Assembly (NCBI GenBank): GCA_021604105.1
Contig: BQIW01000026.1
Location: forward strand, 1-51,771
Source: Nitrospirales bacterium
GTDB lineage: Bacteria; Nitrospirota; Nitrospiria; Nitrospirales; UBA8639
Length of the DNA stretch: 51,771 nt
Reading direction: 5' to 3'
The stretch's first letter is position 1. Each line of letters opens with the position of its first letter. Both the position numbers and the translations under genes were made by a program. The notes beneath the pieces are model-generated. The model had not been told where the DNA came from and made no database searches. It saw only the letters and a list, made by a program, of their open reading frames with translations. This document shows positions 9,619 through 35,200 of this stretch, piece by piece.

Positions 9619-9631
9619 GTCCGCGTCCTCC

Positions 9632-10600
9632 TTATTCCCAAGTCCGCGGGTAATACCCGGTGTGCCAGTATTCAAACATGATGACTTTCCAAATTTCATC
9701 AACGGTTAAATGCTGTTCCCACGGTGGCATTACGGATGCCCAAGGGAAACCTTCACCAGGAAGCCCAATTCCTCCTTTAGCCACTCGCCAGAACACAAAA
9801 GTTTCTTGGAGCTGTGCGATGGTTCCTGCATCGGTAAAATTGGCAGGAATCGGATTAAAGGCAAACGCCCAGAGGCCGCGACCATTTAAATTATCCCCGT
9901 GACAGAAGTGGCAATTTTGGAAAAAAATCTCTCCCCCTTCCCGAACATGCTTAATGTACCCTTTAGCATTCGGATCCCAGGGGTTATCTTCAGGATTTTT
10001 TACATCCTTCATTAAACGTCCCATATCCTGGCTAACGATATGAGCGTTACTGTAGGCCTGATCGTATTTCCCCTCTGGATTAACTCGATACGGATTCGCG
10101 GCAGTTTGCAATACATACGTTTTCCCATGCACTTTAGTTGTGGCCGGTGGGGCCGGATGCACGGTTCTCAATTCAATGGGTTCATCAAAGCTGGGAAGAA
10201 AAGAATTGTAGGCAAAACCCCAGAGCCCGATTGGCAATAAAATCAACAAGGCTGTTCGAATGAACTTAGTCATTCCGGTTTTTGCATCCAAAACGTTGAT
10301 GATTGGACGTTTAAATTCTTCCCACTCCTGCTGCGATCCCGAAACCCACATAAAAATACCGCAAGCAGCAACCGTCCCATAAATGGCCCTCACACTAAAG
10401 GGAATGGGCGGATAGATTCGATACTTGAGGTAAAACAAATTCACAAAACACCAGACAAAGATTCCTGCCCAAAACTTGGGCAAACCCATTCCTGCTCTTT
10501 TGAGGGAATAGTTAATAATGGAAAACACAAGGATGCAGATAGCCAACTCTGTAATCATCTGCATCGGCATGTAGCCTTCAACTAGTTTAAGCCACGTCAT
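9632..10600 (-). CDS. Membrane-bound mono-haem cytochrome c (module A)
   Basis: The 322-aa protein has about four N-terminal transmembrane helices (residues 15-132), then a periplasmic cytochrome c domain with one haem site, CHFCH, at residues 230-234. An axial Met candidate is in WASVMPPWEQHLT. The domain keeps the class I pattern of a final helix (TVDEIWKVIMFEYWHTG). AAGGAGT precedes the ATG. The stop lies 13 bases before the next cytochrome gene, so the two are probably translated from one message. It presumably carries electrons between the soluble pool and the bd-like subunit; that role is inferred from the neighbours. Confidence 0.85.
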   Translation of the reverse strand: MTWLKLVEGYMPMQMITELAICILVFSIINYSLKRAGMGLPKFWAGIFVWCFVNLFYLKYRIYPPIPFSVRAIYGTVAACGIFMWVSGSQQEWEEFKRPIINVLDAKTGMTKFIRTALLILLPIGLWGFAYNSFLPSFDEPIELRTVHPAPPATTKVHGKTYVLQTAANPYRVNPEGKYDQAYSNAHIVSQDMGRLMKDVKNPEDNPWDPNAKGYIKHVREGGEIFFQNCHFCHGDNLNGRGLWAFAFNPIPANFTDAGTIAQLQETFVFWRVAKGGIGLPGEGFPWASVMPPWEQHLTVDEIWKVIMFEYWHTGYYPRTWE

Positions 10601-10645: not shown

Positions 10646-11959
10646 TTATTCTTTTGGAGGTAAAGGTTGGCCTTCTTTTAATTGCGCCAAATAATCGACC
10701 ATTTTACTGAGAGCCCCGCCTGTCAGTCTTACGCCAAAATCCTTTGGCATCTGATTGTCGGGAAAATCCTTTACGACGTATGCACTTGGGTCTAATATCG
10801 ATTCAGTAATGTACTCCTTTGGTGATTTGGCTTTACCCTGATAGGCTGGATCCTTAATACGAATGGGAGCATTGCTTCCCTCCATGAGGAGAGGTCCAAC
10901 TTTTCCCGTCGCACCTTCAATCCCTGGAATCGTATGACAGGCCGGACAACCGGCTTTCATGAAGAGCTTGTCGTAAGGCTCACTTCCGTCGGCTAAAAGA
11001 TTTCCACCACCACCTTCAGCTTCTTCATCTCCACCTGCGGTGGGCCGATCGGCTTCAGGAATAAACTTTTCATATGAGGTAGCAATCACATCATAAGCCG
11101 GAGCTTCTTTCCCTTCCCTCGTATACATCCAGGTATCAACCGCCGCCATTTCGCCGATTGTTAAAGATATCGGTGGTTTATGAATCTTAGGCATTGGACT
11201 TACGGTATCATTTGATCCTTTGACCCCAAATCCCGTCACCACAAAACAACTCGGACATGCATGTGACTCAGCAATATATTCCTGAGCATTTGTAGCCGTT
11301 CCTGACCCTTCAAACGCTTCCTTTTGTTCAGTGGTTCGTGAGGCAGGATCATTCATATGGTAATTTGGCTCTTTTAATCTTTCTTCAGATCTATCAGGAA
11401 TTCCAAATAAATTAGGTGCCCGTTCACTTAAAAATCCCTGTTGGAATCCATGACACAACGGGCACTGGCCTTTCCCAATGGCTCCTTGGGTTTTACTTTG
11501 CCCAATCCCTCCAAAAATGATTTTTTCCCCTTCATCACCAAGTTGTTGCGGTGACATACTTTGGAAATCTAACTTCACAACAGGGGGAGGAAATCCGCCC
11601 TCGACCTGAGGCAGCCAATTCCCGTAGCCGGATAGCGCGGCCGCCACAAAAAACATAAAGCCTCCAATTTTCATTAGGGCACTGATATTTGGAAAATAGA
11701 GACCCATAATAAAAGACATGATTGTGATCATGACCAGAGAAACCGGCAATAAACGGCTTTCTCCTTCAAAATTATGCGTATAATTGGAAATGGCGATAAA
11801 GGCCAAAAATGCGCAGAAAATCCCAACTATCGTTTGGAAACTCGCCCTTTTCTTTTTTTCCGGATCAGAAATTGTTGCCTGGAAGTACAGCAACAACCCA
11901 ACCAGCATCAGCAATACTGGCCAACCCATCCCTATTGCCCGTCCCAATAACTCAACCAC
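10646..11959 (-). CDS. Membrane-anchored di-haem cytochrome c (module A)
   Basis: The N-terminus holds about four transmembrane helices (to residue 120), followed by two cytochrome c domains with CPLCH (about 166-170) and CPACH (about 338-342). Between them an acidic, glycine-rich linker (GGDEEAEGGGG) is visible. A further CPSC pair in the first domain lacks the haem His and sits where the second domain has LDPSA, so I do not count it as a haem site. The open frame begins with TTG at 11974, but I choose GTG 11959 because GGAGG lies eight bases upstream. It lies between the bd-like gene and the mono-haem cytochrome gene, with short gaps on both sides. Confidence 0.85.
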   Translation of the reverse strand: MVELLGRAIGMGWPVLLMLVGLLLYFQATISDPEKKKRASFQTIVGIFCAFLAFIAISNYTHNFEGESRLLPVSLVMITIMSFIMGLYFPNISALMKIGGFMFFVAAALSGYGNWLPQVEGGFPPPVVKLDFQSMSPQQLGDEGEKIIFGGIGQSKTQGAIGKGQCPLCHGFQQGFLSERAPNLFGIPDRSEERLKEPNYHMNDPASRTTEQKEAFEGSGTATNAQEYIAESHACPSCFVVTGFGVKGSNDTVSPMPKIHKPPISLTIGEMAAVDTWMYTREGKEAPAYDVIATSYEKFIPEADRPTAGGDEEAEGGGGNLLADGSEPYDKLFMKAGCPACHTIPGIEGATGKVGPLLMEGSNAPIRIKDPAYQGKAKSPKEYITESILDPSAYVVKDFPDNQMPKDFGVRLTGGALSKMVDYLAQLKEGQPLPPKE

Positions 11960-12026
11960 AGTGCAATCCTCCAACTTGGGGGCTGCCTATTGCAGCCCCA
12001 CGATTGTTTGTAATTGTATTTTTCGT

Positions 12027-13997
12027 TTAATGACCAGTTGCAGACTGAGGAGACGGAACTGGCTGCCCTGCCGGCGAAGGAACCGGTACTTTTTTCGCAC
12101 CAAGTGTGCCCAACCAAAAGACAAACATGATGCTGATCCAGAAAAATAACACGTTAAACGAAATAACGTTGGCCGCAAAACCAATGGTGTGGGTATAAGC
12201 CCACGGAGAGTTATCCCGCATGACTTCGTTGACGTGCCAGAACAATCTCACCGAAGAACGTATGTAGCCCATCAACCCCATCATCCATGTGAATGCTGTG
12301 GCCAACATGATGATGGCATATTGGGAACGTGGGGGAATTTGACCCCATCTAATCGGTCCCAGCTGCCTACCATTTTTTAACATCGCCAAATTAAGTGGCG
12401 TCATTAACAGCAGGCATGACAATGTTCCGGCAACCTGGGGCACCGACAACCCAATTCGCACGTTTGCAGGAATGAAATACCCATAACAAGCCAACCAAAT
12501 ATTGTTTAGCTGGCCTATGAGGAAAAAACATCCCATAAAAATATTGCCAAATTTGGCCCAGCTAACCGTTGGGACCCTGTTCCCCCGCTGATACCAAATA
12601 AAGCTTAAAACGGTCGTCATAATAATGGCGTTGATACCACCATTTTTTGCCGACATGACACCATAATTCCCTAGAACCGGATGCTGTTGACCACCCATAG
12701 CTTTCAACTCCGCCGGAGTCATGACAATCGTATGGGGTGTAATGAAAACCAGAAGACCAACCACTAAAATAAACACGAGATACTTAATATATTTTTGGAA
12801 TCGTTCACCACCGGTCATCCGTCCGAGGGCTTGCCACAAGTAATAATTTGTAGTCAGGAACAGGATTCCGATCATGGTGGCCTGAATAATAAACAACCAA
12901 GCCAACAATCCACCCATCAAGGTAATTCCCATTTGTTGACGGTAGGCATACACCTCACGCATCAACCAATATCCTGCAAAAGGCAATGGGATGAGAAATG
13001 CCACACCTAAACTCATTGCGATGTAGCCCATCCAGTCATAATGAGCCCGCTCTTCATCTGTTTTTGAAGAAAGGAATCGATAGGCCGCATAGGCTGCCAC
13101 CACACCACCACCAAAGGCCATGTTCCCGAGAATTCTATGAACATTCAAAGGATTCCACAGTGCTGTATGAAGCACGTGCCAAATATTTCCAAGATAACGT
13201 CCCTGCTCATCTACTCCGGCAGGAGACATCATGAACGCAATCCATGAATTGGCGAGGAACATCAACACCGTTCCAATTACATTTAAGATTACGGACATGC
13301 TGAGATGAACCCACTTCAGAACACCTTCCCTCATCTTGTCCCAACCGTAATAATAAATGTAAAGGGTTGCACTTTCCGCCACGAATGTTAAGGCATATAT
13401 GTGCATGACCGGCCGGAAAATACTAGACAAATACCCAAAGAAGGCCGGATAGAGCGTAAGGAAAGTAAAAATCAGAATCCCACCAAGAATCGCGGTTAAG
13501 GAATAAGCCGTTAGGCTGATCTTGATAAAGTCATAAGCCAATTGGTCATATTTCTTGGCCATTGCCTTATCTTTACTGACCATCCCGGCAAACTCGATAC
13601 ACATACAAAAGATTGGTACCGCCAACACAAAACTTCCATAATACAAATGCTGCTGGTTGGCCACCCAAAGAAGGACACGACTCTCAAAGTTATACCGAGG
13701 GTAAAAAGTTTCATTGTCTTCCGTCACCGGTGCTGGCATCCCAATGGCTGGGCCTTCGGTTTTGTAATAAACATCCCGGCCCATTTCCACTTTTTCCGCC
13801 TCGCCCTCCTCACCTTCGGCCTTTTGTGCGGCGACAACATCCGCTGGAGGTCCACCAGCCGGTGCCCCACCTCCAGCTGCCACGGCGGTGATTGACAGGA
13901 AAATCGGCAGCAACAGCAGACAACCCATCACCATCAATGCCGATACGGCGAACAACTTTTTCTTCCCCCGGGTCATTTGATTGAACAGGCGACCCAT
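12027..13997 (-). CDS. Cytochrome bd-like oxidase protein (module A)
   Basis: This is a polytopic 656-aa membrane protein distantly related to CydA. CydA-type landmarks are QQHLYYGSFVLAVP (H117), the EsxxxxxxxxGWDKM block (E208-D220), a long N-terminal helix set ending at NSWIAFMMSPAG, WNPLNVHR (H287, equivalent to CydA H186) and YRQQMG (M356, near CydA M393). There is no CydB and no quinol-oxidising loop. The extra C-terminal half adds conserved His in TPHT (H422) and GQQHPV (H439), and GRLFWH (H588). Proteins of this type in Nitrospira have been proposed as a novel terminal oxidase. A secretion-type N-terminus and an acidic stretch (AEGEEGEAEKVEMG) precede the core. The ribosome binding site is AAGGAGG before ATG. 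Cytochrome c genes follow directly, so cytochrome c is the likely donor. Confidence 0.85.
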   Translation of the reverse strand: MGRLFNQMTRGKKKLFAVSALMVMGCLLLLPIFLSITAVAAGGGAPAGGPPADVVAAQKAEGEEGEAEKVEMGRDVYYKTEGPAIGMPAPVTEDNETFYPRYNFESRVLLWVANQQHLYYGSFVLAVPIFCMCIEFAGMVSKDKAMAKKYDQLAYDFIKISLTAYSLTAILGGILIFTFLTLYPAFFGYLSSIFRPVMHIYALTFVAESATLYIYYYGWDKMREGVLKWVHLSMSVILNVIGTVLMFLANSWIAFMMSPAGVDEQGRYLGNIWHVLHTALWNPLNVHRILGNMAFGGGVVAAYAAYRFLSSKTDEERAHYDWMGYIAMSLGVAFLIPLPFAGYWLMREVYAYRQQMGITLMGGLLAWLFIIQATMIGILFLTTNYYLWQALGRMTGGERFQKYIKYLVFILVVGLLVFITPHTIVMTPAELKAMGGQQHPVLGNYGVMSAKNGGINAIIMTTVLSFIWYQRGNRVPTVSWAKFGNIFMGCFFLIGQLNNIWLACYGYFIPANVRIGLSVPQVAGTLSCLLLMTPLNLAMLKNGRQLGPIRWGQIPPRSQYAIIMLATAFTWMMGLMGYIRSSVRLFWHVNEVMRDNSPWAYTHTIGFAANVISFNVLFFWISIMFVFWLGTLGAKKVPVPSPAGQPVPSPQSATGH

Positions 13998-14103: not shown

Positions 14104-14220
14104 TTATCGGAACATATAGAAATAGTCGAGTCCCTGGGCATCCATCAAGACATAATCCAATGCCTGGAAATATACAAAACAAATGACCAATGAAACTATG
14201 ACATACAGAGCTGTCTGCAT
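14104..14220 (-). CDS. 38-aa single-helix membrane protein
   Basis: This is a very small gene below ordinary ORF cut-offs. It starts at ATG 14220 with AAGGAGG five bases upstream, one of the best ribosome binding sites in the window, and stops with TAA at 14104-14106. The product is one hydrophobic helix (MQTALYVIVSLVICFVYFQA) followed by a short polar tail with D and Y residues (ending YFYMFR). It lies between the 44-aa gene and the bd-like oxidase gene on the same strand. I infer a CydX/CcoQ-like small subunit or assembly factor by position and shape; there is no recognisable family motif. Confidence 0.75.
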   Translation of the reverse strand: MQTALYVIVSLVICFVYFQALDYVLMDAQGLDYFYMFR

Positions 14221-14282: not shown

Positions 14283-14417
14283 TTAGCAGGGACACTGAAT
14301 ACCGGCAAACCAATAAAAGAACCACAAACTTACTGCGCATGTCAGATAAAAAATAGCCTTGCCTATTTTGGTCTCTAGCTCCGTTGACTCTCTTATGTTA
14401 GCCGTCGAATCCCCCAT
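14283..14417 (-). CDS. 44-aa single-helix membrane protein ending in CPC
   Basis: ATG 14417 is preceded by GGGAGG seven bases upstream; an in-frame ATG two codons earlier is too close to that box. The product has a charged N-terminal half (RESTELETKIGK), then one transmembrane helix (AIFYLTCAVSLWFFYWFAGI), and ends with QCPC. It is the first gene of oxidase module A, 62 bases before the 38-aa gene. Aromatic residues and a terminal Cys pair suggest a small oxidase subunit or a metal-delivery tail, but this is inferred from position only. Confidence 0.75.
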   Translation of the reverse strand: MGDSTANIRESTELETKIGKAIFYLTCAVSLWFFYWFAGIQCPC

Positions 14418-14545: not shown

Positions 14546-14650
14546 ATGCGTTCAAATGCAAAAGTGTTCGACATTATAGTTTTGGCCGGAATGGTTGTCA
14601 ATATTCTCCTTGCTGTCTTCCTCATCCTCTACTATTTTGATTTTCTTTAA
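14546..14650 (+). CDS. 34-aa single-helix membrane protein, divergent from module A
   Basis: This gene runs against the surrounding strand. ATG 14546 has GAGGG seven bases upstream and a consensus-like promoter before it; TAA ends at 14650. The product is a short charged start (MRSNAKVFD) and one long hydrophobic helix (GMVVNILLAVFLILYYF). I recognise no family. Its place next to two other micro-proteins and an oxidase operon suggests a respiratory small subunit or a regulator of the complex, but this is inferred. Confidence 0.65.
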   Translation: MRSNAKVFDIIVLAGMVVNILLAVFLILYYFDFL

Positions 14651-14694: not shown

Positions 14695-15579
14695 TTAATC
14701 TGATCGCGCGCACCTGAAACCAATCGTCTCGTCCCGAAAATCGGGAACCATAAAACTCCTATTGGTGATTCTAATGTCGGATCCTTGACTCGTGTAGCCA
14801 CTGCCTCTCATTGTCTTGTAAGTTGAAGGAGGCCGACTATTCGACGACGCAACAGCATTTTCTTGAAGATAAAGATCCTCAACATACCAATTATCCGTCC
14901 ACTCCATAACATTCCCAGCGCCGTCATACACCCCAAATACACTTTGATCAAGGGGAAAAGCCCCAACCGGAGCTGACACAACATAACCATCGGCCTCTCC
15001 TGCAAAATTGGCAGGAAATCCGCTCAGACCCTCACCCCAAGGCCATGTACGACCATCTGTCCCTCGCATAGCCTTTTCCCATTCCTGTTCAGTAGGAAGA
15101 CGCTTGCCTCTCCATTGACAATAGTCATTCGCATCACTCCATGACACATAGGTAATCGGCTGATGAGGCCCTCGTAGCAATCCGAGCTTCTCGGCATAGC
15201 GAGAAGGTGGGCCAGGCTGCCGATGTCCGGTAGCTTCGACAAATTCCATATACCGTTGGTAGGTGACCTCATACCGATCAATCCAATATGCCTCTAGATA
15301 AGTAACGTGTGCTGGCTTTTCATTGAATCCGCCTTGATTACTCCCAAGAATGAATTCCCCAGCAGGAATCTCAACCATCTCATCTTCATTGGCTCGACCA
15401 GATTGCGCCAAATCCTTTGATGCCCCAGATGATCTCTCAGGGGTTGAAGAAGGCTGAGCTTGAACATCGCGATCAGGGGGAGTTGGAGGAGCATCGGTTC
15501 CCCTCAATATTCCCAACACCGGCAGCCCGGTCATAAATAACACTGCAATCAAAAAAATAAGTTTAAATCGACCGTCCAT
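14695..15579 (-). CDS. SUMF1/FGE-domain protein, membrane anchored (module B, last gene)
   Basis: This is a 294-aa protein with an N-terminal hydrophobic anchor (LIFLIAVLFMTGLPVLGIL), a Pro/Ser-rich linker, then an FGE-sulfatase domain: EMVEIPAGEFILGS, AYWIDRYEVTYQRYMEF, YCQWRGKRLPTEQEWEKAMRG, YDGAGNVMEWTDNW, and TIGFRCARSD. The copper-binding active-site Cys pair of true formylglycine-generating enzymes, expected after the RGSGY strand, is absent, so it should not make formylglycine. The family also includes EgtB/PvdO-like enzymes and non-catalytic binding proteins. It follows a paralogue by 86 bases and shares only the general domain with it. Confidence 0.8.
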   Translation of the reverse strand: MDGRFKLIFLIAVLFMTGLPVLGILRGTDAPPTPPDRDVQAQPSSTPERSSGASKDLAQSGRANEDEMVEIPAGEFILGSNQGGFNEKPAHVTYLEAYWIDRYEVTYQRYMEFVEATGHRQPGPPSRYAEKLGLLRGPHQPITYVSWSDANDYCQWRGKRLPTEQEWEKAMRGTDGRTWPWGEGLSGFPANFAGEADGYVVSAPVGAFPLDQSVFGVYDGAGNVMEWTDNWYVEDLYLQENAVASSNSRPPSTYKTMRGSGYTSQGSDIRITNRSFMVPDFRDETIGFRCARSD

Positions 15580-15665
15580 GTTCCCCTATTTCTGGTCCAT
15601 CTAAGGTTACCTATTCCGAGAAACTATGGGCAATTGATCTCGCCGATGAGGGGTTTGTTTATCGT

Positions 15666-16583
15666 TTATGAGGATTGAGGCATCTCAGTCGGAGGATCTT
15701 TTGCGCACCGAAACCCAACAGTGGCATCGTTTCTCCACATTTTCGCTGCAAAACGCTTTGTTACCCTCGCCCCTATACGAGATTCACGCCAGGAGCCTCC
15801 ACGAATGACTTTATTCTCATCCTCGTCTTTGGGGCCGTGGGGGTCCCGATAAGGAGCCTGCTGATAATAGTCAGGAGCATAACTATCCATAACCCACTCA
15901 GCCACATTGCCGGTGGCATCATAGAGTCCAAACGGGCTTCTCCCTACTTCAAAAGATCCCACGGGAGCTAAAAACTGAAAGCCATCCTCCTCCCCGTCCA
16001 CATTGGCAAACTGATAGTCAAACTTATCTCCCCAGGGATAACGGCGTTTTCCTTCTCCCCTTGCCGCTTTTTCCCACTCCGCCTCGGTCGGTAACCGCTT
16101 GCCAGCCCAACGACAATACCCAAACGCATCATTCCAGGTCACCGCTACCACCGGATAATCTGGCCCGCTCAACTTGGCGACATCATCTTCAAAGACCGGC
16201 ACCTTAGGCTTGTCACGTTTTGTCATCTTGACATACCGCTCATAATCTGCCTGCGTGACTTCTTTAAGATCCATATAAAATGTTTGGAGATAGACCGGAT
16301 GGGAAGGCCCTTCATCAGGGTCCCCATCGTCAATGCCCATGGTAAATGGCCCTTCAGGAATTTCGACCATTTCACGGTTATCATCCCCCACGAACGTCTT
16401 ATACATAGAAAAATCCTGTGTGGGCATTGGCTGCAACACCCGGACACTGGCCGGTTGACCGGCCGAGAGCTCATCCAGATTTTTTTTCCCATTGTAGGTC
16501 ATAAAAATCAACATCACGATCATCATGATGAAAGAGCCAAACACAAACAGAATGGCCCCGATGAGGACCCGTTGATTTTCCAT
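15666..16583 (-). CDS. SUMF1/FGE-domain protein, membrane anchored (module B)
   Basis: The 305-aa protein has one N-terminal TM helix (LIGAILFVFGSFIMMIVMLIF) and a periplasmic FGE-sulfatase domain with EMVEIPEGPFTMGID, EVTQADYERYVKM, YCRWAGKRLPTEAEWEKAARG, YDATGNVAEWVMDSY, KVIRGGSW and VGFRCAKD. After RGGSW the sequence is RESRIGARV, without the two catalytic Cys of FGE. It lies in the tight run after the second bd-like gene. Its function is unknown; a structural or cofactor-related role in the oxidase assembly is inferred from the linkage and from the recurrence of the domain in this window. Confidence 0.8.
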   Translation of the reverse strand: MENQRVLIGAILFVFGSFIMMIVMLIFMTYNGKKNLDELSAGQPASVRVLQPMPTQDFSMYKTFVGDDNREMVEIPEGPFTMGIDDGDPDEGPSHPVYLQTFYMDLKEVTQADYERYVKMTKRDKPKVPVFEDDVAKLSGPDYPVVAVTWNDAFGYCRWAGKRLPTEAEWEKAARGEGKRRYPWGDKFDYQFANVDGEEDGFQFLAPVGSFEVGRSPFGLYDATGNVAEWVMDSYAPDYYQQAPYRDPHGPKDEDENKVIRGGSWRESRIGARVTKRFAAKMWRNDATVGFRCAKDPPTEMPQSS

Positions 16584-16633
16584 GACTATTTTACCCCTTG
16601 CTTCGACCTAAACAGCACGATGCTTCAGTTTCG

Positions 16634-17011
16634 TTACGGTTGTATAGGACCATGATGGTTGACATTCGACTCAGGAAGGGACTGATTCCGTTGCTGCCAG
16701 GTTTCAATTAACATCGAAATCCAAATTCCCAAAAATCCACCCATCGCCGCACCTGACGCGGCACCAACAGTCATAGCCTCGGTTCCACTCAATCCGAATG
16801 CCAACAGTCCGCCTAAAATAGTTCCGATAACAATGCTCAAAAAGAACCCTCGGCCGCCTACTAAGCCTACACCGGCGCCAAGAAGGGCACCCGCTCCTAT
16901 TGCGACAGGAAGCCACCCTTCTCCCATAAATATCCCGATCAACAGGCCCACTGTCCCCAATCCCATGACACCCAAGAGGACATCAAATATTTTCGATGGA
17001 GTCATCTTCAC
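16634..17011 (-). CDS. Glycine-zipper membrane protein of unknown function
   Basis: The 125-aa product is almost wholly hydrophobic with about four helices and dense small-residue patterns (GAGALLGAGVGLVGGRG, GAASGAAMGG) typical of glycine-zipper helix packing. A short polar tail ends the protein. GTG 17011 with AGGA seven bases upstream, or ATG 17005, may be the start. It lies four bases after the DUF3047 gene and 50 before a SUMF1-like gene, so it belongs to the module B operon. I recognise no family. Confidence 0.7.
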   Translation of the reverse strand: MKMTPSKIFDVLLGVMGLGTVGLLIGIFMGEGWLPVAIGAGALLGAGVGLVGGRGFFLSIVIGTILGGLLAFGLSGTEAMTVGAASGAAMGGFLGIWISMLIETWQQRNQSLPESNVNHHGPIQP

Positions 17012-17014
17012 GTT

Positions 17015-17749
17015 TCATTCCTGCCGAAGATCATTGTTGGATGAGTCAGACTGAACCCGAATAGAACCAAAGTCCACCTCCACTCCCGGTCCCCCTAATA
17101 AAGATATACCCCAGGCATGTGGGGCTGGTTCATGGTCATGAATCTTCAGAAAATCCTCATACACATTAATCCGTTCCTCCACCCACTTCCCAAGGGATTC
17201 AGTCCCACTACGGATGACAATTTCTGTGGAGCTAAACATGCCACCCTCCTTGACTGATCCGACAGGAAGCGTTGCACTCCAGACATATTTGGTGTTCACG
17301 GGAATAAACATCAAATCAACATCCAAGGACGGATAGATTGCCGCCAGGAAATCAGCGTCATCGGGGACACTCTGTATTCTCCAACGCCAAATCAGAATAG
17401 GGTGTTCCTTTGGATCCCAGGTTATTTGCTTGGTATACACCCGTTGATTGGCGTTTTTCGCCGAAAGAAAAAAAGTCCCATCCTCTTCTTGAATCGAATA
17501 GGTTTCATGGGCTGTGACCGTACTCCGTTGCGCTTCCCATCCTTGAGGAAATCCTTTGGCATCAGGATGCTGAAAGTCTTCCAACACCATCGAACTACTG
17601 GAAGACCCTGAGCTCGGGATTTCTTGAGCCCACGCCGCACTACTTGCAACTCCCAGGAGGCCCACGACCAAACATGACCAAAAAGCCCGGCTTACTCGGC
17701 TTCGTTTTACACCCTCTGAATTATTATGTTGCCAAGAACAAATTCTCAT
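17015..17749 (-). CDS. DUF3047 family secreted protein
   Basis: The product has a signal peptide (FWSCLVVGLLGVASSAAWA|QE) and then a beta-rich domain with the DUF3047 pattern: DFQHPDAKGFPQGW, FFLSAKNANQRVYTKQI, HPILIWRWRIQSVPDDADF, and SLGKWVEERINVYEDF. The function of DUF3047 is unknown. Its start codon overlaps the stop of the bd-like gene by one base (TAATG), which indicates translational coupling with the oxidase protein and makes a joint role likely. Confidence 0.8.
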   Translation of the reverse strand: MRICSWQHNNSEGVKRSRVSRAFWSCLVVGLLGVASSAAWAQEIPSSGSSSSSMVLEDFQHPDAKGFPQGWEAQRSTVTAHETYSIQEEDGTFFLSAKNANQRVYTKQITWDPKEHPILIWRWRIQSVPDDADFLAAIYPSLDVDLMFIPVNTKYVWSATLPVGSVKEGGMFSSTEIVIRSGTESLGKWVEERINVYEDFLKIHDHEPAPHAWGISLLGGPGVEVDFGSIRVQSDSSNNDLRQE

Positions 17750-19620
17750 TACGCGGATTCCTCTTTTGAAATGACCTGAATCACCGGAGAAGGCCTCGCA
17801 AATTCAGCCGTTCGCCTCTCTACTACTCGCTGATCCCATCTGCTAAGCCAAAACACGAAAAAGACTGACGACCAAAAAACAATCATATTGAGAGTAACCA
17901 TTTTCGCAGCAAATCCCAGGGAAGGCGTAAATGCCCAGGAGGATTGATCCGGCATTAATTCGGAAATATGCCACCCCAATCGGCCAGCAGATCTGATATA
18001 CCCCATTAACCCCATTACCCATGTAAATGCGGCAGCGACGACAAATAGTGCCACAATCCCACGCGGAGCAATTCGGCCCCAATGCACAGGCCCATTAATA
18101 TGGGCGCCCCGCAACATGAACCGGTTTAATAATATCCCTCCAACAACCACTGTTGCGGTTGTCATCCCTTGAGGCGAAGAAAGACCAACCCGAACATTTG
18201 CCGGAATGTAGAACCCGTAAATGGCTAACCACACGATATTGGCAATCCCCATGAGAAATAACATCAATAAGAAAACATTTCCCTTTGTTCCCCACTTGAC
18301 TGTCATCACATAATTGGCTCGCCGATACAGAATGTAACTCAGCGCGGTTAAACAAATCATGACGTTAACTGCACCATTCTTCGCAGACATCACACCAAAT
18401 TGACCAATGACCGGATGCTGGGCCGCGCCCATCGCTTTCATTTCACTGCCACTCATGGCAATGGTGTGCGGAGTAAACCACACGAGAAAACACACCATCA
18501 ACGCAAAAATGATCGCCTTAAAATGAGGATGAAAGCGCTCGCCACCTTGAAGGCGCGCCAAGGATTGCCAGATGTAATAGTTAATTCCTAAAAACAAGAC
18601 CCCGACCATAATCGCTTGGAGGACGAAGAGCCAGGACAACATCCCTCCCATCATCGCCATGCCCATCGTTTGCCTGAACTCAAAGACGGCCCGCATCAAC
18701 CAGTAGCCTGCAAGCGGCATGGGGAGAAGCGCACATACCACCACCACAATAAAAACATGCCCGACCCAATCGTAATATGCTCGGTCCTCCGCAGTTTTTG
18801 ACATGAAATACCGGTAGGTCGCATAGGCGACGACCACAGCCCCACCGGACATAATATCCGCCAAAAAACGGTGCGCATTCAGTGGATTCCATAGTGGAGA
18901 GTGCAGAAGATGCCACACATTGCCTAAAAAGTGCCCTTGGGCATCAACTCCGGCGGGAGCCATCATAAATGAAGCCCATGAATTCGCTAATAACAATAAA
19001 AGGACTCCGATGGCATTTGAGAGTACACCAAGAGTCATATGCACCCACTTCAGCGCCGGCGTGTTAAAGAAATCCCAGGTGTAATAATAGAGTGCCAAGA
19101 GAAAGGCTTCACTCACAAACACCATGGCATACACCGGCATAACCGGCTTAAACGTCGACCCCATGTAATTCATAAACCCCGGGTAAAGCGTCACAAAGGT
19201 CATGAGCATAACACAGCCTAATAAGGCCGTTAGGGACAACGACAACAGGGCCACACGCAGAATATCACGAGCCAGTCCATCCAATTTCTGTTGGGTTGCC
19301 CGCTGTTTTCGGGTAATCCCTAAGAATTCTAACAATAGACAAAACAAGGGAATCGATAAGACAAAGCCTCCAAAATAGGTGTGTTGTTGAGTCACAAACC
19401 ACACCACTAACCGGTTATCCACGAAAGGATAGGTGGAATAATCCTGGTGAGTCATTGCAACAGATGGGCTGGAGATAGACCCGGAAGTTTGGTAAAAAAT
19501 ATCCGTACTTGTCTGCTCTTCAGTCGAGGGCAAAGCGTAACTATCCATGCTCACTGCGATCCCGGTCTGCAGCAGAAAAAAAACCAGCACAATGACCGAG
19601 GTTTTAAAAATTATTTGCAA
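17749..19620 (-). CDS. Cytochrome bd-like oxidase protein (module B paralogue)
   Basis: This 623-aa polytopic membrane protein is a clear paralogue of the module A protein. Shared blocks include QQHTYFGGFVLSIP, the NSWASFMMAPAGVDAQG loop, GNVWHLLH, WNPLNAHR, FRQTMGMAMMGG, FTPHTIAM, AAQHPVIGQFGVMSAKNG, IPANVRVGLSSPQ and GRLGWH. Differences include Pro instead of His in the VMPVYAMVF segment (VMHIYALTF in A) and TWD instead of GWD. It lacks the acidic N-terminal insert of A. It has a signal-like first helix. The two-base gap from the gene before it and the one-base overlap with the next gene show tight coupling in the operon. No cytochrome c gene is nearby, so its electron donor is unclear. Confidence 0.85.
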   Translation of the reverse strand: MQIIFKTSVIVLVFFLLQTGIAVSMDSYALPSTEEQTSTDIFYQTSGSISSPSVAMTHQDYSTYPFVDNRLVVWFVTQQHTYFGGFVLSIPLFCLLLEFLGITRKQRATQQKLDGLARDILRVALLSLSLTALLGCVMLMTFVTLYPGFMNYMGSTFKPVMPVYAMVFVSEAFLLALYYYTWDFFNTPALKWVHMTLGVLSNAIGVLLLLLANSWASFMMAPAGVDAQGHFLGNVWHLLHSPLWNPLNAHRFLADIMSGGAVVVAYATYRYFMSKTAEDRAYYDWVGHVFIVVVVCALLPMPLAGYWLMRAVFEFRQTMGMAMMGGMLSWLFVLQAIMVGVLFLGINYYIWQSLARLQGGERFHPHFKAIIFALMVCFLVWFTPHTIAMSGSEMKAMGAAQHPVIGQFGVMSAKNGAVNVMICLTALSYILYRRANYVMTVKWGTKGNVFLLMLFLMGIANIVWLAIYGFYIPANVRVGLSSPQGMTTATVVVGGILLNRFMLRGAHINGPVHWGRIAPRGIVALFVVAAAFTWVMGLMGYIRSAGRLGWHISELMPDQSSWAFTPSLGFAAKMVTLNMIVFWSSVFFVFWLSRWDQRVVERRTAEFARPSPVIQVISKEESA

Positions 19621-19621
19621 T

Positions 19622-20695
19622 TTAATTCACCAGATTGCCATGCCCGACTTTGGCATCAGCAAGAGAAGGAAGAGGTTCAGGAGATTTAGAATTTTGGAGC
19701 ATCCCCATCACAAAGGGACATCGTTGTATGGATTCAGGAATGCCGACGAGCTGTTCTTCATAGGATTTACGCCAACCCAGGAAGAGGGTATACAGTGCCA
19801 TCAACATAGCGGTACAGGCGGTTATCACCATAAAACCTCCTTGAGGGATCTGCTCAATCCGTAATACAAAAGCAGCTACCCCCATGAGAACCAGAAAATA
19901 CGTCGCTGAAAAAGTCAGATTTGGCCACATCCAAAACCAAAGAGATGACAGCCAGGTTCGTGGCTGGCCTTCCTGTGTTTTTTGAGCATATAACGATTCT
20001 CCGCAGAAAAACGTCTTCATTCCGATTGAGGCAATCAAAACGGGAACGAACAGCGCTTGAAGAATGGGTTGCAATTCAATCGACCCTACAGTGAACAGAA
20101 GCCATGAACCAGCCACCCCCACCATGGTCGCCAATGCTCCCCATTTCACAATGCTTCCTACTTCTTGTGGAATCCATTTTCGTAACGCCTCTCCGTCAGG
20201 AAAGGTTGGCACGACCACCCCTTGTTTTCTCATGCATTGCACATGACCGATTTCAAAGGCATCGCGGGTCACGGACGTGCATGAAATGATCGTCGCCATC
20301 ATGGCTGGACCTTCCGGATGGAGCAAAAAATCATAGGCCACAAATACTTGAAGAATGGCCAGAACCAAGAGGGATAATTGAATTCCATAAACCAGACCAA
20401 TCCACCCCACCAACCACACCCACTGCTGAGCCCCGTCTTCGCGCCAGGATTCCACGAGAGAAACCCCACGTCCCTGTCGATAGGACCAGATGGCAGTAAG
20501 CATACAAAGACACCCGGTGAATGTCAGAAGAATAATTGGGTCGGAAAGCGGCAAGACCGGCTTAAGAAGATGGTAGATCCCAAACGCCACGAGGCCGGGT
20601 GCCAACATCACCAATCGTTTCCGCTTGCGAACGGGTGGATCAGTCACCAGGGCATTCAACTGTGGAAGGACACGAAGGGAAAGTCGATGCAACAT
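19622..20695 (-). CDS. Polytopic membrane protein of unknown family
   Basis: The 357-aa protein has about eight hydrophobic segments. A central loop carries a possible metal or redox motif, DAFEIGHVQCMRKQG, preceded by ISCTSVTR, and another Cys lies in KTFFCGESLYA. The N-terminus is basic (PPVRKRKRL). I do not recognise the family. Only two bases separate its stop from the bd-like start, so its product is probably made together with the module B oxidase protein. It could be an additional subunit or an assembly permease; this is inference from position. Confidence 0.75.
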   Translation of the reverse strand: MLHRLSLRVLPQLNALVTDPPVRKRKRLVMLAPGLVAFGIYHLLKPVLPLSDPIILLTFTGCLCMLTAIWSYRQGRGVSLVESWREDGAQQWVWLVGWIGLVYGIQLSLLVLAILQVFVAYDFLLHPEGPAMMATIISCTSVTRDAFEIGHVQCMRKQGVVVPTFPDGEALRKWIPQEVGSIVKWGALATMVGVAGSWLLFTVGSIELQPILQALFVPVLIASIGMKTFFCGESLYAQKTQEGQPRTWLSSLWFWMWPNLTFSATYFLVLMGVAAFVLRIEQIPQGGFMVITACTAMLMALYTLFLGWRKSYEEQLVGIPESIQRCPFVMGMLQNSKSPEPLPSLADAKVGHGNLVN

Positions 20696-20761
20696 ATTCT
20701 TACTCGCTTCAAAGGGATTTTCAGAGATTTACTGTTTGCGCCAATTCGCTCACCAGGCGTT

Positions 20762-21241
20762 TCATGCGCGCCCTGCCGCCATACCAAAATAACGGGCTTT
20801 CACCTCTTCCATGAGTGCAACCGTGACCGCAGGCATCCCGCGATCCAACGCCGTTCGCTCCAACTCAATCTTCGCCATTGCCCGAATTCCTAACGGAACA
20901 TTATTGATTCGACGCTCAGCGTCCGGGTTCCACTCCACCATCCCCTTATTCCGCGCCGACCCAACTCGGGCAACCGTCACAACCTTTTGCCCCCTGGTAG
21001 AGGCAAACTTTTCCACCTCTTCCCGAACAAGAGGAAGTAAATAGGGAGGAAGCCGGCTCATTTGATATAAGGCCTCGTCCGTCCATTCGACGTGGGAAAC
21101 CACCGCATCCAATTCTTTAGCATTCCCTTCTGCTCCAAGGGAAAATCCACACCGATCGCAATGAAATTTGGCAAACACAGAATCAGACGGTAACTCTTCA
21201 ACCTCCACAATTCGTAAAAAATATTCGCAACCACATTGCAT
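20762..21241 (-). CDS. Zinc-ribbon plus two PCP_red-like domains
   Basis: The N-terminus has a probable zinc ribbon (MQCGCE ... HCDRCG). Two copies of a PCP_red-like domain follow: EWTDEALYQMSRLPPYLLPLVREEVEKFAS and EWNPDAERRINNVPLGIRAMAKIELERTALDRG, the second ending with the ARYFG element. PCP_red is the C-terminal helical domain of light-independent protochlorophyllide reductase subunit B and also occurs alone in non-photosynthetic bacteria. The frame is open from TTG 21256, inside the DUF420 gene; I choose ATG 21241, with GGGTAGG upstream. Its neighbours are the DUF420 gene and an unknown membrane protein gene. The function is unknown. Confidence 0.7.
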   Translation of the reverse strand: MQCGCEYFLRIVEVEELPSDSVFAKFHCDRCGFSLGAEGNAKELDAVVSHVEWTDEALYQMSRLPPYLLPLVREEVEKFASTRGQKVVTVARVGSARNKGMVEWNPDAERRINNVPLGIRAMAKIELERTALDRGMPAVTVALMEEVKARYFGMAAGRA

Positions 21242-21248
21242 GAACGGC

Positions 21249-21974
21249 CTACCCAATTTTTCCCGGATAGAGAATATAGAGCATCGTGTAGGTAAACGTT
21301 CCCGTTACGAACAATACACAGTAAATCACCATGGTGAATCGTCCAAGCACTCGATGCCGTCTGGCCCCATTTGGCCAAATCCGCTGGATAGATATTTCAA
21401 TTCCAAACACTAATGCAATGAGAAGAATAAGACCAAGATATACACTGAATTTCCCCATGGAAAATCCAGAGGTCATTACCCGTGACAGGAAAAATAGGAG
21501 GACAATGGTGGTCACCCCTCCCAGGATCATCACAATCCGTCTCCAGGAAGTCTTTAACATCGCATCCTTTAAGACCCGCTTCCCTTCCACGAAAGTCTGT
21601 GCCCGGAACCCCAACACCATCATATAAATGGCCATTACAAGGCCGATCACGACCAGGAGAATATGCAGCGTCAAGACAGGCACAAACACTTGATCGTATA
21701 ACCATTGAGGTCCACCAAATCCTTCCTTGCCCTCAAAAGCCAGGACCCCAAGACTGCGAAACAAATAATAACTGATAAAGAAGGCGAGCATGGCAATCAT
21801 CCCACCGAACATCAGCCAATGATGCTGATCATTCTTATGTTGTCTCGCCTGAATCCATCCGACAATAAACAATATCGTAAAGAACGTCGCCATGAGTTGG
21901 CTCACATCCGCTCCAACCGTGGCATGGGTGCCGAAAAACCCCGGTTCTCTCAGCCATATCGCCATTTCATCCAT
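21249..21974 (-). CDS. DUF420-like membrane protein (oxidase assembly type)
   Basis: The 241-aa protein has about seven hydrophobic stretches. A DUF420 pattern is visible: short soluble start, ATFFTILFIVGWIQAR, HHWLMFGGMIAMLAFFISYYLFRSLG, then VFVPVLTLHILLVVIGLVMAIYMM, with conserved His residues near helix ends. DUF420 includes CtaM of Bacillus, which is needed for activity of caa3 oxidase, and such genes are usually linked to haem-copper oxidases. Its presence beside a bd-like gene is therefore informative. It lies 22 bases after the methyltransferase gene. Confidence 0.75.
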   Translation of the reverse strand: MDEMAIWLREPGFFGTHATVGADVSQLMATFFTILFIVGWIQARQHKNDQHHWLMFGGMIAMLAFFISYYLFRSLGVLAFEGKEGFGGPQWLYDQVFVPVLTLHILLVVIGLVMAIYMMVLGFRAQTFVEGKRVLKDAMLKTSWRRIVMILGGVTTIVLLFFLSRVMTSGFSMGKFSVYLGLILLIALVFGIEISIQRIWPNGARRHRVLGRFTMVIYCVLFVTGTFTYTMLYILYPGKIG

Positions 21975-21996
21975 AATTTCGCGCCATGTCCTTCTG

Positions 21997-23052
21997 TTAT
22001 TTCGTGCCTTGAATCATGGCACGCGGTTCTAACTCTTCCACAATTCGAAAGCCGGCTTGCTCCATCCATTGATAACTTTCTTGAATTGTAAAGCACTCGC
22101 CACATTCGGTGTTCACCAGGATATGGACCGCAAAGGCTGTCGTCCACGCAGGACTGGTTTTACCTGGATCCAAAAATCTGTCTTTAATGATCAATCGTCC
22201 ACCTTCATTCAAACAGGCATATACCTTCTTCACCAATGCGGCATTGGTTTTGCCATCCTGATAATGCAGAATATCCGACATGAGGGCAAGATCATACGGC
22301 CCCTGAAACGCATCAACATGGAAGTTGCCGCCTTGCAAATGGATTCGATCGCCTAACCCCGCACGCTCGACATGTTGCTGAGTCACACGTAGGGTTTGAG
22401 GGAGATCAAAAACCGTGGCAGATAGCTCGGGATTTTCCTGGCAAAAGGCAATGGCATTGGTTCCGGCCCCCCCACCTATATCTAGAATTCGCCCCGATCC
22501 ATGAATGGGGACACGTTTTGCCAATCCCTGCCCACTTCCTTGCCCGATTCGATCCAAGACGGTAAGCACATGAGCTCCCAGTTCCGGATTCGTTTCAAAA
22601 ACATGCTGCGTCACAGGTGACCGTCCGGTTTTTACGGTCTGTTCCAACTGTCCCCAATGGCTCCATTCAGCGTCATGCAACAATAATAAATGGCCTACAT
22701 ATTCTGGGCTCGATTGCACCAGATGTCGTTCAGCCACAGGAGTATTGGTAAACAGTTTCTCTTCCTTCGTTAACACACGCATTGCAACTAAGGCGTTCAT
22801 AACCAATTCTAAGGCCCGTAGGTTGAGCTTCCGAGCATCGGCAACTTCAATGACCGTAAGGGACCGCCCCTTGAGTGCGGTAAAGAGATCAAGCTTAACA
22901 GCAGTGAGCAAGATCTTAGTTTCCCAGTAATATCCTATCTGGAAAATATCTGCGAGTGATGATTCACGAGTCACACGGGGCCTCAAACTCAACTTACAAC
23001 ATGAAAAATTATTTTCGATGTCGATCTTAACGGGGTCATTTTGCGAGGTCAA
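21997..23052 (-). CDS. SAM-dependent O-methyltransferase (hydroxyindole/BchU-like family)
   Basis: The 351-aa protein has the two-domain build of this family: an N-terminal winged-helix dimerisation domain (ALKGRSLTVIEVADARKLN...LVMNALVAM) and a Rossmann methyltransferase domain with the SAM motif ILDIGGGAGTNA, VFDLPQT, GGNFHVDAFQGPYDLALMSDILHY and GGRLIIKDRF. The family includes acetylserotonin O-methyltransferase, BchU (C-20 methylation of bacteriochlorophyllide) and CrtF. The substrate is unknown. The longest frame begins at TTG 23052. A GTG at 22974 with GAGG six bases upstream would give a protein beginning TRESSLADIF and may be the real start. It is the first gene of the module B run. 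Confidence 0.8.
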   Translation of the reverse strand: MTSQNDPVKIDIENNFSCCKLSLRPRVTRESSLADIFQIGYYWETKILLTAVKLDLFTALKGRSLTVIEVADARKLNLRALELVMNALVAMRVLTKEEKLFTNTPVAERHLVQSSPEYVGHLLLLHDAEWSHWGQLEQTVKTGRSPVTQHVFETNPELGAHVLTVLDRIGQGSGQGLAKRVPIHGSGRILDIGGGAGTNAIAFCQENPELSATVFDLPQTLRVTQQHVERAGLGDRIHLQGGNFHVDAFQGPYDLALMSDILHYQDGKTNAALVKKVYACLNEGGRLIIKDRFLDPGKTSPAWTTAFAVHILVNTECGECFTIQESYQWMEQAGFRIVEELEPRAMIQGTK

Positions 23053-23091: not shown

Positions 23092-23130
23092 AAAAACAAG
23101 GGCAACTAGCTGGTGGCTAGTTGCCCTTGA
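23092..23130 (-). terminator. Rho-independent terminator after the 264-aa cupredoxin gene
   Basis: A perfect 13-bp stem (AAGGGCAACTAGC with its complement, 23099-23129, 5-base loop) is followed on the minus strand by a G and then six T residues. It lies 31 bases past the cupredoxin stop and about 40 bases before the next open frame. Confidence 0.9.
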
Positions 23131-23160: not shown

Positions 23161-23955
23161 TTATTTAATTTCAAAATTGGCTTCGACGGTTCCCCCGTCC
23201 TTCACATCCACATCGGCTTCCACTTTGCCGGCAAGAGGATGCCAGGCCACCACTTTATGCTTGCCGGCAGGCACGTCCTTAATTTCGAAAGTTCCATCCG
23301 CACCAGCCACACCATAATGAGGATTGGTCACAGGCAAATACCAGCCTTGCATAAATTCATGCTGGTCACATTGCAACCGCAACACAGACCCCTTTCTTGA
23401 CATTTTCAATTTGACCTTTTTCTCTAAAGAATCACCTTTTTTAGCCAGACCGATATTGAACTCGGTGCTGGACTTGGCACCCAATTGATCAAAACTATGC
23501 GGGTTGTGCAACACACCTTCAGCCGATTTGGGGTCGCTGGGATCGGCATCGTTGTTGACCACCTTAAACAGACCCTTGCTCACGGCCACTCCGGTATAGG
23601 GCTTAAATTCACACAAATCCGCCTCCACCAATTGGGGAGCCTCTTTACCGGCTTTGCCTAAAAAGTCTTTGTCCTTAATATCAGTAACAGCGACGACCGC
23701 GTGCTTTAACCCCTTGCTATCGTCTACTTCCACTTCTTTGAGAAGCCGAGTTTCACCATCCGCACTTTTGCTCTCATTTTTTTTGCAAAACTCTACATTG
23801 GGAAATTTTGAGAAGGCAAATTCTTTCGGGGGAGGAACTTTTCCGGTAAATGTGACTTTCCCCTTAATTGTTCCCCCGGCTTGGGCGACTAATGGGGCCG
23901 CAATCAGCATGCAGCCAACCAAAAATGACATAGTCAACGACTGACGGTTCCTCAT
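23161..23955 (-). CDS. Secreted cupredoxin / carboxypeptidase-regulatory-like protein
   Basis: The 264-aa product has a signal peptide ending LVAQAGG, a beta domain beginning GTIKGKVTFTGKVPPPKEF with a conserved Cys (EFCKKN) and a second Cys (LCEFKPY), and then amicyanin-type copper ligands: a His in VLHNPHSFD, and Cys, His and Met in LQCDQHEFMQGW (C-x2-H-x2-M). It ends with a carboxypeptidase-regulatory-like repeat (GTFEIKDVPAGKHKVVAWHP). It is probably a periplasmic blue-copper electron carrier. It is related to the two larger proteins at 28397-30250. The ribosome binding site GGAGG lies seven bases before the ATG. A strong promoter and terminator flank it, so it is probably well expressed. 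Confidence 0.85.
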   Translation of the reverse strand: MRNRQSLTMSFLVGCMLIAAPLVAQAGGTIKGKVTFTGKVPPPKEFAFSKFPNVEFCKKNESKSADGETRLLKEVEVDDSKGLKHAVVAVTDIKDKDFLGKAGKEAPQLVEADLCEFKPYTGVAVSKGLFKVVNNDADPSDPKSAEGVLHNPHSFDQLGAKSSTEFNIGLAKKGDSLEKKVKLKMSRKGSVLRLQCDQHEFMQGWYLPVTNPHYGVAGADGTFEIKDVPAGKHKVVAWHPLAGKVEADVDVKDGGTVEANFEIK

Positions 23956-32277: not shown

Positions 32278-35200
32278 TTATTTGACTGCCACGGGCAACA
32301 CACTGCCCGTCTTCCCCCTGTCGATGGACGCTTGCTTGACCTCGCCAGCACCTCGTTCCAGGGGCAGGATCCGTTGGTCATTTTTAGGGAGAACCCTTAA
32401 ATAACCCCATTGCCCGGATTGGGAGTAAGGTAGTCGCTGATTATTCCAGACATAATCTGCTGGAAGCATATCCCGGCCTCCAGCTGACGGAATAAATACA
32501 TCAATGGTTTCGGATCCGGCGTATTCGACCACACTGATTTGGTCGGCCCCCGGCATGAAGGGTTCGATCGGCCATTCATGCTTTTCGACACTGAACATCC
32601 CATTTTGTTCGCTACTGGCACCAAACACATGAATCCTTACAGGATCCCCTGCATGTGCCATGATAATCGGAGTAACTGGATCCTGTGGGTCATCTACCTC
32701 ACAAGGCTGGAACATGCGTCCAAGAGTACATCCAACCTCTTCACGATAGAGATAGGGTTCAGACCGATAATTGACCCCGGTAAGTCCAGCAACATTCTGA
32801 ACATACGGCATAAAGCTGGTACCAATGATGTTGTCTTCATCTTGGAAAAGTAAAGCTACATCACGATAATTTTGGCGGTGCTCTTGACCAGGAATGGTTC
32901 GATCAACAATCACATCCGCTTCCCAGCTATTTTTAAGTGAAATATCCGCACCGGTCTTTGGATCGCGGTATTGTGACCCTTTCGGCCCGATAATAACCGC
33001 GCCGAACAATCCGTTTCGCGGGTTTAACATCACATTTCCCCAGTCCCATACCAAGGATGAAATCTCCCCGTTAAAAGGATCAGCATAATAGGTATAGGTC
33101 TTCGACTCTCCTGGGGCAATCGTTTGATCCCCTGGATTATTCCCAACGTTGGCCCCCAATGAATCTTGCGGATTAAAGGCCAGTGAGATTGCGGAGAAGG
33201 ATGCGCGGCTCTCCTTCATTTTATTTTTGAGATTCACTTTGAGGCAATCTCCCACGTTTGCTCGAATAGTCAATGGCATCGGATGGTAATCCCCTGCCAC
33301 TTTAGTGACCTCATCCTCAAGGACATAGATTTTGCCCTCAGGGTTTCTCAACTCGATTGTCCTCTCAAAGTCGATCTCAATAGATTCCGGAGCACTCGGA
33401 TTAAAACTCATCCCAGGAAAGTCCATGGCGACTACATTAAATGTCTTCACCGGAGCCTCTTCAGGACAAACAGGAAGGGGCTTTGGAATCTCATTCCGAC
33501 CTGAATATCCTGCTGGAAGCGGTTTTAGATCCTCCGTCATCTTATCCAGAACTCGGAGAATTCCCCAACCTCCCTCGGAGAATTTGGAGGAACGTCCATT
33601 AAAATGAATATAGTCTCCAGGTTGCAGACGAGGACCGCCTGCCTTTGGAACGACTAAATCATATCGCTCGGCAATTCCAATATGCATGGAATTTTTTCTA
33701 TTGGCATCACCGGCATATCGTTCGCTCAAAAACGTGTGCCCTGATATCGTCCAGGTCATCGTTTCATTCATCAGAGTGTGCAAAAGACGGATCACCACCG
33801 TATCTCCCAGGTATGCCCGCAATAAGGGCGTATCCGGATCCCCGTGTTCAGTGCTACTGAATATTTTTGAAGCATCGGGGTTCACCGCTAAACGTTGGGC
33901 AATGGGTTCGGCTCTGAAATTGAATCCGCTTCCCGTCGTATGTGTCCCTCCGTTGAGGAAGGGCATTGGGGTCATGAGGATATTATCAGGCATCATAAAT
34001 GACACCGTTTTCCCCGCTTCCAAGGCAACCTCGACCGGCTGCCCAGGGGGGTTGCCCGCCGTCACGATGTTGACCGTGTGAGGAACCGTATCATGAACCT
34101 GGACCACCATTTCCCGGAAGCTATTATCCACACCGTAGCCAACCGGTTCCACCGTATGGATATCCGCGATGGGTCCGCTCCTGACGAGTTTCCCGGTCGT
34201 AGGATCATGGTAGGTTGATCCCACGGGTTCCACCACTAATGTACCGAATCCACCATGTGGCCAAGTGGTGGCCCCAAAGGCATGGTCATGCCAAAACACC
34301 GTTCCCACGTCAGCATCCGCCCAGAGTCGTGATCGCACAAATTCCACAGTCACGATATCCCCTACGGGATGATCATGTTGCAAGGGCCGAACAAAGGAAA
34401 TGGTATCTCCCTTGATGGATTTGATTCGACGGATCTCGTTCCCTTTGACATTATCGGCACCAACCAGCAATTCCGTATTGACATGGTATTGCGCTGCATT
34501 TTTAACCTTAATACTGGAATCGCCCTTTTTTGCCTTGCCCGTCATCACGGTATTCATTGGCACGGGTAGGCCCTTTTTAGTCTTTTTCTCCAGCATGGTA
34601 AACGGACGGACAGACTGTTCGTAGGAAAAACCGGTAATCACCCCATCCGATGCCTGGTTGTCAAATTGAAGGAAATGAGGATGAATGTTAATTTTTGAGG
34701 ATTGAAAGTTGGTAAAATCGTCATCCAACCATTCGCTGGTCAGCGTATAGTCCACACAATCATAAATATTGGCACGAAACACCAACGGCAATTTTAAGTC
34801 GTTATTTTTTCGTATTTCCTCTTCCTCTTCATGGAGGACATAAATCAACCCATAGGGGTCAATGACAGGAGCTTCATCACCCTGGGCCCCGGCCATTTCA
34901 ATGGGAGTATTGATGAAATGAATATTGTAATATTTACGTCCGGCATTTTCCGGACACAAACTCCACCTTCCGTTTTCTCCCGGTTTGGCCGGCTCGGATG
35001 TCCGTAGACCATTTTCATCCTGATGAATCATTTCCAACCATGGGGCTGGATTATGATTTGGTGGGAACATGACCCGTTTGCCGAAATGCGGAGTCAGATG
35101 CGGCCATGAAACCTTCCCTGTCCTCGGCTCAAACAGAATCGGGCGCCGTTTGCCCGGGGTAGCCGATTGGTATTTGGGGTTCTCGATTGTGCTCTCTTTC

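Follow-up and report, generated by a model that had tools for sequence, protein, structure and literature searches.

The window analysed here, 51.8 kb long, makes up one contig of a 4.9-Mb genome; its source is a Nitrospirales member resembling lineage IV (UBA8639), the isolate UBA8639 itself belonging to lineage IV of the order (PMC12342949). At 14695-23052 on the minus strand the window carries a run of nine genes (module B) whose order is kept in almost all nitrite-oxidising Nitrospirales, directly upstream of a module (module A) for a bd-like protein, cytochromes c and an alternative NxrC. We hold, at about even chances, that the nine genes are a subunit-plus-maturation operon of a bd-like complex linked to nitrite oxidation. 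The unit would extend the bd-like/cytochrome c/alternative-NxrC membrane complex of these bacteria by a second bd-like subunit (BDB), probably the partner of the bd-like subunit of module A (BDA), and by four putative membrane or periplasmic subunits, namely a DUF3047 protein, GZ125, FGE1 and FGE2. The remaining products, a methyltransferase (MT), a DUF420 protein which may act in the manner of CtaM, a PCP_red protein and the membrane protein MP357, would form a maturation cassette loading or protecting the metal cofactors of the bd-like subunits, and the cofactors handled would be haem b and/or copper. Gene content, conservation, the layout of the transcription unit (as a sequence prediction), the haem-ligand histidines and the modularity in relatives are results of the analysis, whereas the pairing of BDA with BDB, the maturation role and the cargo of each factor are inferred.

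Gene order and conservation of the unit

The nine open reading frames were confirmed on one strand as the first-pass annotation had described them, and its family assignments were borne out by Pfam, which returned Methyltransf_2 with its dimerisation domain, DUF420, a double PCP_red, Cyt_bd_oxida_I, DUF3047 and two FGE-sulfatase domains, and no match for the 357-aa and 125-aa membrane proteins. The order of transcription is MT, DUF420, PCP_red, MP357, BDB, DUF3047, GZ125, FGE1 and FGE2, and the intergenic gaps, given earlier as a few bases, are 22, -8, 66, 1, -1, 3, 50 and 86 bp, so that description is only roughly right. A terminator-like hairpin (23097..23129, minus strand; a 14-pair stem followed by a T tail) lies between the upstream gene and MT, and a sigma-70-like promoter (TTGACA-17-TATAAT, 14573..14601, minus strand; 12/12 match) lies after FGE2 and before module A. 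These two signals fit one transcription unit of exactly nine genes, and by sequence prediction the nine genes probably make up one operon, and BDA and the cytochromes a second one downstream of it. The Rfam search of the window gave zero matches.

The order CPD264-MT-DUF420-PCP-MP357-BDB-DUF3047-GZ-FGE1-FGE2-BDA-C442-C322-NxrC-MobA was retained wherever the contig permits in 35 loci from about 30 genera, with one clear exception which is weighed below, and it was found again in an independent collection, whose 66 Nitrospirales loci include those of N. moscoviensis (L213) and N. defluvii (L218). Since the same order recurs in loci of more than 25 genera, the gene run is not due to chance, and conservation of the set as a unit, which the first-pass annotation had proposed as a check, holds within the nitrite-oxidising Nitrospirales. 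MP357 is present in 185 of 196 genomes of the order. No other phylum was among the best 80 loci of one contig scan, which is no test for module B in Nitrospina or anammox bacteria; one Nitrospinota-titled record of that scan (L228) shares its gene order with a genome that is assigned to the family of the window.

Downstream of the unit follow BDA (12027..13997; PF01654 and synteny), two c-type cytochromes (10646-11974 and 9632-10600; Pfam and synteny), the NxrC-like protein (7747-9702; a TIGR03477 match and an ethylbenzene-dehydrogenase gamma domain) and a MobA-like gene, those with coordinates all lying on the minus strand. A bd-like gene, two cytochromes c and an NxrC-like gene are the components of the bd-like_3/alternative NxrC/cytochrome c cluster, which is reported to be tied to nitrite oxidoreductase (NXR), highly transcribed and shared with Nitrospina and Kuenenia (PMC6606698, PMC3578206), and a second bd-like copy lies nearby in all Nitrospira (PMC6606698). 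Both the window and N. moscoviensis match this NXR-associated bd-like_3/bd-like_4 cluster, having BDA, two cytochromes and the alternative NxrC in order and another bd-like gene at a distance of a few genes, whereas those published descriptions deal with the bd-like, cytochrome and NxrC genes and do not give MT, DUF420, PCP_red, MP357, DUF3047 and FGE as a unit. The strict synteny of the nine genes directly upstream of an NXR-tied module (PMC6606698, PMC3578206) is a first reason for the subunit-plus-maturation reading.

A second reason is the invariance of the haem-ligand histidines in BDB (17749..19620, minus strand), which is 50% identical to BDA and matches PF01654 in its N-terminal half only. 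Its H80 and H250 align with the axial ligands H21 and H186 of CydA (5doq) and are conserved in 36 of 36 sequences. BDB differs from CydA in that the Pfam match stops at profile position 251 of 418, the C-terminal half is unalignable, Tyr164 stands in place of E101, and the quinol site is reported missing in this type of bd-like protein (PMC3578206). The E107/E108-type glutamate (E171) is found in 31/36 BDB sequences as compared with 36/36 of BDA. The label of oxidase, used in the first-pass annotation, finds agreement in the histidines, yet the similarity to cytochrome bd is confined to the N-terminal half, and for BDB the label is a doubtful assumption. In the OR-N-type CydAA' oxidases two subunits of this type are combined (PMC12342949, PMC10839748), and by analogy BDA and BDB would form a CydAA'-like pair. 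A third bd-like copy of the genome, 77% identical to BDA, adjoins an NxrA gene (L180:4520-6697; G000 contig 25).

Modularity in relatives

The block FGE2-BDA-C442-C322-NxrC was found without the rest of module B in the sister family f4 and, within Nitrospiria, in a further six genomes (L169-L175, L181). FGE2 therefore belongs to module A by ancestry, and the predicted inserted block is MT-DUF420-PCP-MP357-BDB-DUF3047-GZ-FGE1; FGE1 was seen alone near module A in L171 and L174. The four f4 genomes retain module A, and in them MP357 was not found, no MT orthologue was detected (best match 29-31%), and no NxrA-like match of the size seen in other genomes was obtained, although two nitrite-oxidiser genomes likewise gave no long NxrA match, as is expected from a fragmented multicopy NXR (PMC12342949). 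We infer that f4 is the family UBA2166, which is reported to be non-nitrite-oxidising (PMC12342949). The absence of MT and MP357 where NXR-type NxrA is missing and module A is still there also argues that the nine genes are subunits and maturation factors of a nitrite-oxidation-linked complex.

All 14 loci of Manganitrophus and other Troglogloeales (L182-L195) have DUF420 after MT, with no bd-like gene nearby and with unrelated neighbours which offer no hint of a substrate. Standing alone in these 14 loci outside Nitrospirales, MT-DUF420 could be a separate two-gene unit of unrelated function that the operon has captured. We regard such a capture as rather improbable, as the order is fixed across the whole of Nitrospirales, the link of DUF420 to PCP_red extends to other families, and MP357-like genes (25-29% identity) occur near MT-DUF420 in several of the Manganitrophus/Troglogloeales loci.

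In three other Nitrospiria families DUF420 lies beside a thioredoxin-fold gene, a NUBPL-type Fe-S carrier ATPase, a two-PCP_red protein and a haem-oxygenase-fold protein, and in G297 this cluster directly adjoins module A (L170); in f4 DUF420 lies among sulfate-assimilation and ATP synthase genes. Because DUF420 recurs across these varied settings it is the hub of the set, and its thioredoxin-fold, Fe-S carrier and PCP_red neighbours suit an assembly factor, which supports the maturation part of the favoured reading. Separate occurrence of the genes in relatives had been named by the first-pass annotation as a sign against its proposal, and this was encountered in part, as MT-DUF420 stands alone in Troglogloeales and DUF420 is without MT in other families.

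Candidate maturation proteins and their cofactors

MT (21997..23052, minus strand) is an S-adenosylmethionine (SAM)-dependent methyltransferase of Methyltransf_2, with catalytic and dimerisation domains above the Pfam cut-off (PF00891, 74.1 bits; PF08100, 47.1 bits); its true start probably lies near residue 25-28 (about 22974), since the alignment with most orthologues begins only at that point. The SAM motif LDxGGGxGT is intact and invariant among the Nitrospirales MTs, and the histidine of SDxLHYQ is invariant in the orthologues and aligns with a histidine of the O-methyltransferase family 2 structure 5i2h, so by these motifs the enzyme is probably active. The earlier term BchU-like was right for the fold family, the SAM motif and the dimerisation domain, but it was rejected as a functional clue. 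The NCBIfam BchU equivalog model gave 65.8 bits against a cut-off of 276, the MT profile ranked RedM (172 bits), 3mcz (165) and MTHB/DSYB (159) well ahead of BchU (84) in the PDB, and the single sequence gave 101 bits with 22ow and 48 with BchU. The nearest structures (RedM, 22ow, 5i2h, MTHB/DSYB, 3mcz) are thus small-molecule methyltransferases, which goes some way towards the clustering that had been named as contrary to a haem substrate, and the substrate of MT is most likely a small molecule or a cofactor ligand.

As Nitrospira uses methyl-plastoquinone (mPQ), MT might methylate a quinone precursor used by the complex. Nitrospira has no quinones other than methyl-plastoquinones (PMC12324825), and MT is a small-molecule methyltransferase having the catalytic histidine of its family. 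Such quinone tailoring is nevertheless very improbable, since the mPQ enzymes MpqA-E are UbiA-E homologues with a UbiE-like protein as the assigned methyltransferase (PMC13386864), MT pairs with DUF420 and not with prenyltransferase or decarboxylase genes, and the known quinol site is missing in the bd-like proteins of this type (PMC3578206).

The DUF420 protein (21249..21974, minus strand) is a membrane protein of the CtaM family in a long form of about 245 aa (PF04238, 64.1 bits against a cut-off of 30.5). DUF420 was found in 19/20 Nitrospiria genomes; in a nearly identical set the haem A synthase CtaA was found in 0/20, and a COX1 match was present in only 7/20. CtaM of S. aureus and B. subtilis has the same domain and likewise a gene beside a respiratory subunit, but it serves a haem-copper oxidase, in the known cases one with haem A, whereas here CtaA was not detected and most of the genomes are without a haem-copper oxidase, and the target of this DUF420 protein must therefore differ. 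In Firmicutes, CtaM is required for an active oxidase and dispensable for haem A synthesis (PMC8239418), and the family is now linked to copper export (PMC13344008); both the requirement and the copper link favour a maturation role for the cassette. The sequence search of the PDB with DUF420 gave no match. The structural neighbours of its AlphaFold2 model were headed by cytochrome b561 (Z 9.9; 142 aligned, 4.0 A) and STEAP1 (Z 9.0), both four-helix membrane proteins with haem b, a likeness which is suggestive, yet within the range of unrelated helical bundles.

The third product (20762..21256, minus strand) is a small soluble protein with a CxC...CxxC N-terminus and two PCP_red domains (PF08369, two stretches). 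In the PDB this domain is the small C-terminal part of subunit B of protochlorophyllide reductase (DPOR); the operon protein has two copies of it and, unlike subunit B, no nitrogenase-like catalytic part, with the cysteine-bearing N-terminus instead (TIGR01278, 41 bits against 490). Across Nitrospiria, PCP_red domains are found in tandem and in company with NUBPL, universal stress protein and rubredoxin-like domains, and because such Fe-S, stress-protein and rubredoxin-like partners recur, PCP_red was rejected as proof of a tetrapyrrole link. Elsewhere in the same genome (L263:5075-6502; G000 contig 34) a radical SAM/SPASM protein nearest NirJ2/AhbD bears a C-terminal PCP_red, and its gene adjoins that of a universal-stress-protein/PCP_red/rubredoxin-like fusion; this radical SAM protein is the best hint at a tetrapyrrole link and keeps it alive. 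MP357 (19622..20695, minus strand) is a polytopic membrane protein with an RDAFExG motif and no Pfam or NCBIfam family (AlphaFold2 model, pLDDT 85), and a profile comparison gave no convincing link to DUF420 (probability 16.5%).

Two families with tetrapyrrole links had suggested to the first-pass annotation that the operon makes or inserts an altered haem. DUF420 would then bind or oxidise haem, MT would methylate it, and PCP_red and MP357 would hand the product to the bd-like subunits; haem b might be modified by oxidation or by O- or C-methylation, for example, and, if true, a previously unknown haem type would stand in a core nitrifier complex. DUF420 has been proposed as the ancestor of CtaA (PMC8239418), and the haem-b neighbours of its model, the catalytic-type histidine retained in MT and the NirJ2/AhbD-like fusion all lean to the same side. 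Against this, the Z scores are within the chance range for helical bundles, MT is far from BchU, PCP_red is not tetrapyrrole-specific in these genomes, CtaM is not needed for making haem A, and f4 and other families have DUF420 without MT. The evidence does not support an altered haem, which we consider improbable. The assembly or maturation role itself is reasonable, because the unit is conserved and DUF420, PCP_red and MT travel with the bd-like subunit.

The gene immediately upstream of MT (23161-23955, minus strand; CarboxypepD_reg-like) has an invariant His150 and Cys196-x2-His199-x2-Met202, a set which resembles type-1 copper ligands in its sequence pattern, and it fits the "cupredoxin-like" genes of an earlier description (PMC3578206). 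This ligand set is counted for the favoured reading, in which copper is one of the candidate cofactors, and also for a dedicated copper delivery route, in which DUF420 would export or pass copper, MT would make or modify a ligand for copper, and the PCP_red protein with its CxC/CxxC motifs would be a metal-handling chaperone. A giant multicopper-oxidase-like protein of 1625 aa (32278-37155, minus strand; weak matches near its N-terminus) and the copper sites suggested in another Nitrospira bd-like oxidase (PMC6606698) point the same way, but a copper site is established in neither BDB nor BDA, and DUF420 also occurs in genomes where haem-copper oxidases are few or missing. Copper delivery in place of a haem-directed role is unlikely.

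Several points weigh against a subunit-plus-maturation operon. To our knowledge there is no biochemistry for any of the nine proteins. At the exceptional locus L102 only DUF420-PCP-MP357-BDB was found, and the genome G101, which is 99% complete and from a nitrite-oxidiser family, gave no MT, full-length PCP_red protein, MP357 or either bd-like gene; these may be real gene losses or else assembly losses and missing contigs. As MT-DUF420 has no bd-like neighbour in Troglogloeales, some of the cassette proteins may act on a different target. The model obtained for DUF420 has only a modest pLDDT of 72, and the fold search with MP357 found no PDB match at E<=0.001.

Other products, microproteins and meaning for nitrite oxidation

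The other four products are all encoded on the minus strand. The DUF3047 protein (17015..17749; PF11249) has a signal-like N-terminus and, by alignment, invariant H204 and H206, and GZ125 (16634..17011) is a small glycine-rich hydrophobic membrane protein which has no Pfam or NCBIfam family and was traced by synteny. FGE1 (15666..16583; PF03781) is a membrane-anchored protein of the formylglycine-generating enzyme (FGE) fold, and FGE2 (14695..15579; PF03781) has the same fold and stands beside BDA in the relatives without module B. Their only conserved cysteines are C157/C293 in FGE1 and C154/C290 in FGE2, none of which lies at what we take to be the active-site segment of known formylglycine-generating enzymes. 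The active-site cysteine pair is thus missing, and formylglycine chemistry was rejected on the number and positions of the cysteines.

Between FGE2 and BDA lie three conserved, unannotated microproteins with a single transmembrane segment each. The first (14546-14650, plus strand; 34 aa, MRSNAKVFDIIVLAGMVVNILLAVFLILYYFDFL) runs opposite to the operons, is near-identical across the nitrite-oxidising Nitrospirales and has one copy per genome. The promoter of the second operon (14573-14601, minus strand) sits antisense inside its gene and is itself near-identical in 79 distinct segments, with one copy per genome. In these segments the wobble sites of the microprotein gene in the -35 and -10 hexamers, together with one or two spacer sites, are invariant and most others vary, a pattern that would be expected if the same DNA is both coding and promoter. 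The second microprotein (14283-14417, minus strand; 44 aa) ends in IQCPC-COOH and is conserved before BDA in nitrite oxidisers; a possible counterpart in relatives without module B has His residues at its end instead. The third (14104-14220, minus strand; 38 aa), with a conserved LMDxQGLDYxYxFR tail, lies directly upstream of BDA, occurs in f4 as well, and is possibly a CydX-like small subunit.

In the study of nitrite oxidation the bd-like complex beside NXR has been a puzzle for a long time. A fixed accessory gene set which is missing from relatives without NXR supplies definite candidates both for subunits of this complex and for factors that assemble it. In addition, a CtaM-family protein occurs almost throughout a class in which no haem A synthase was detected, so the role of this family is probably wider than the haem A oxidases.

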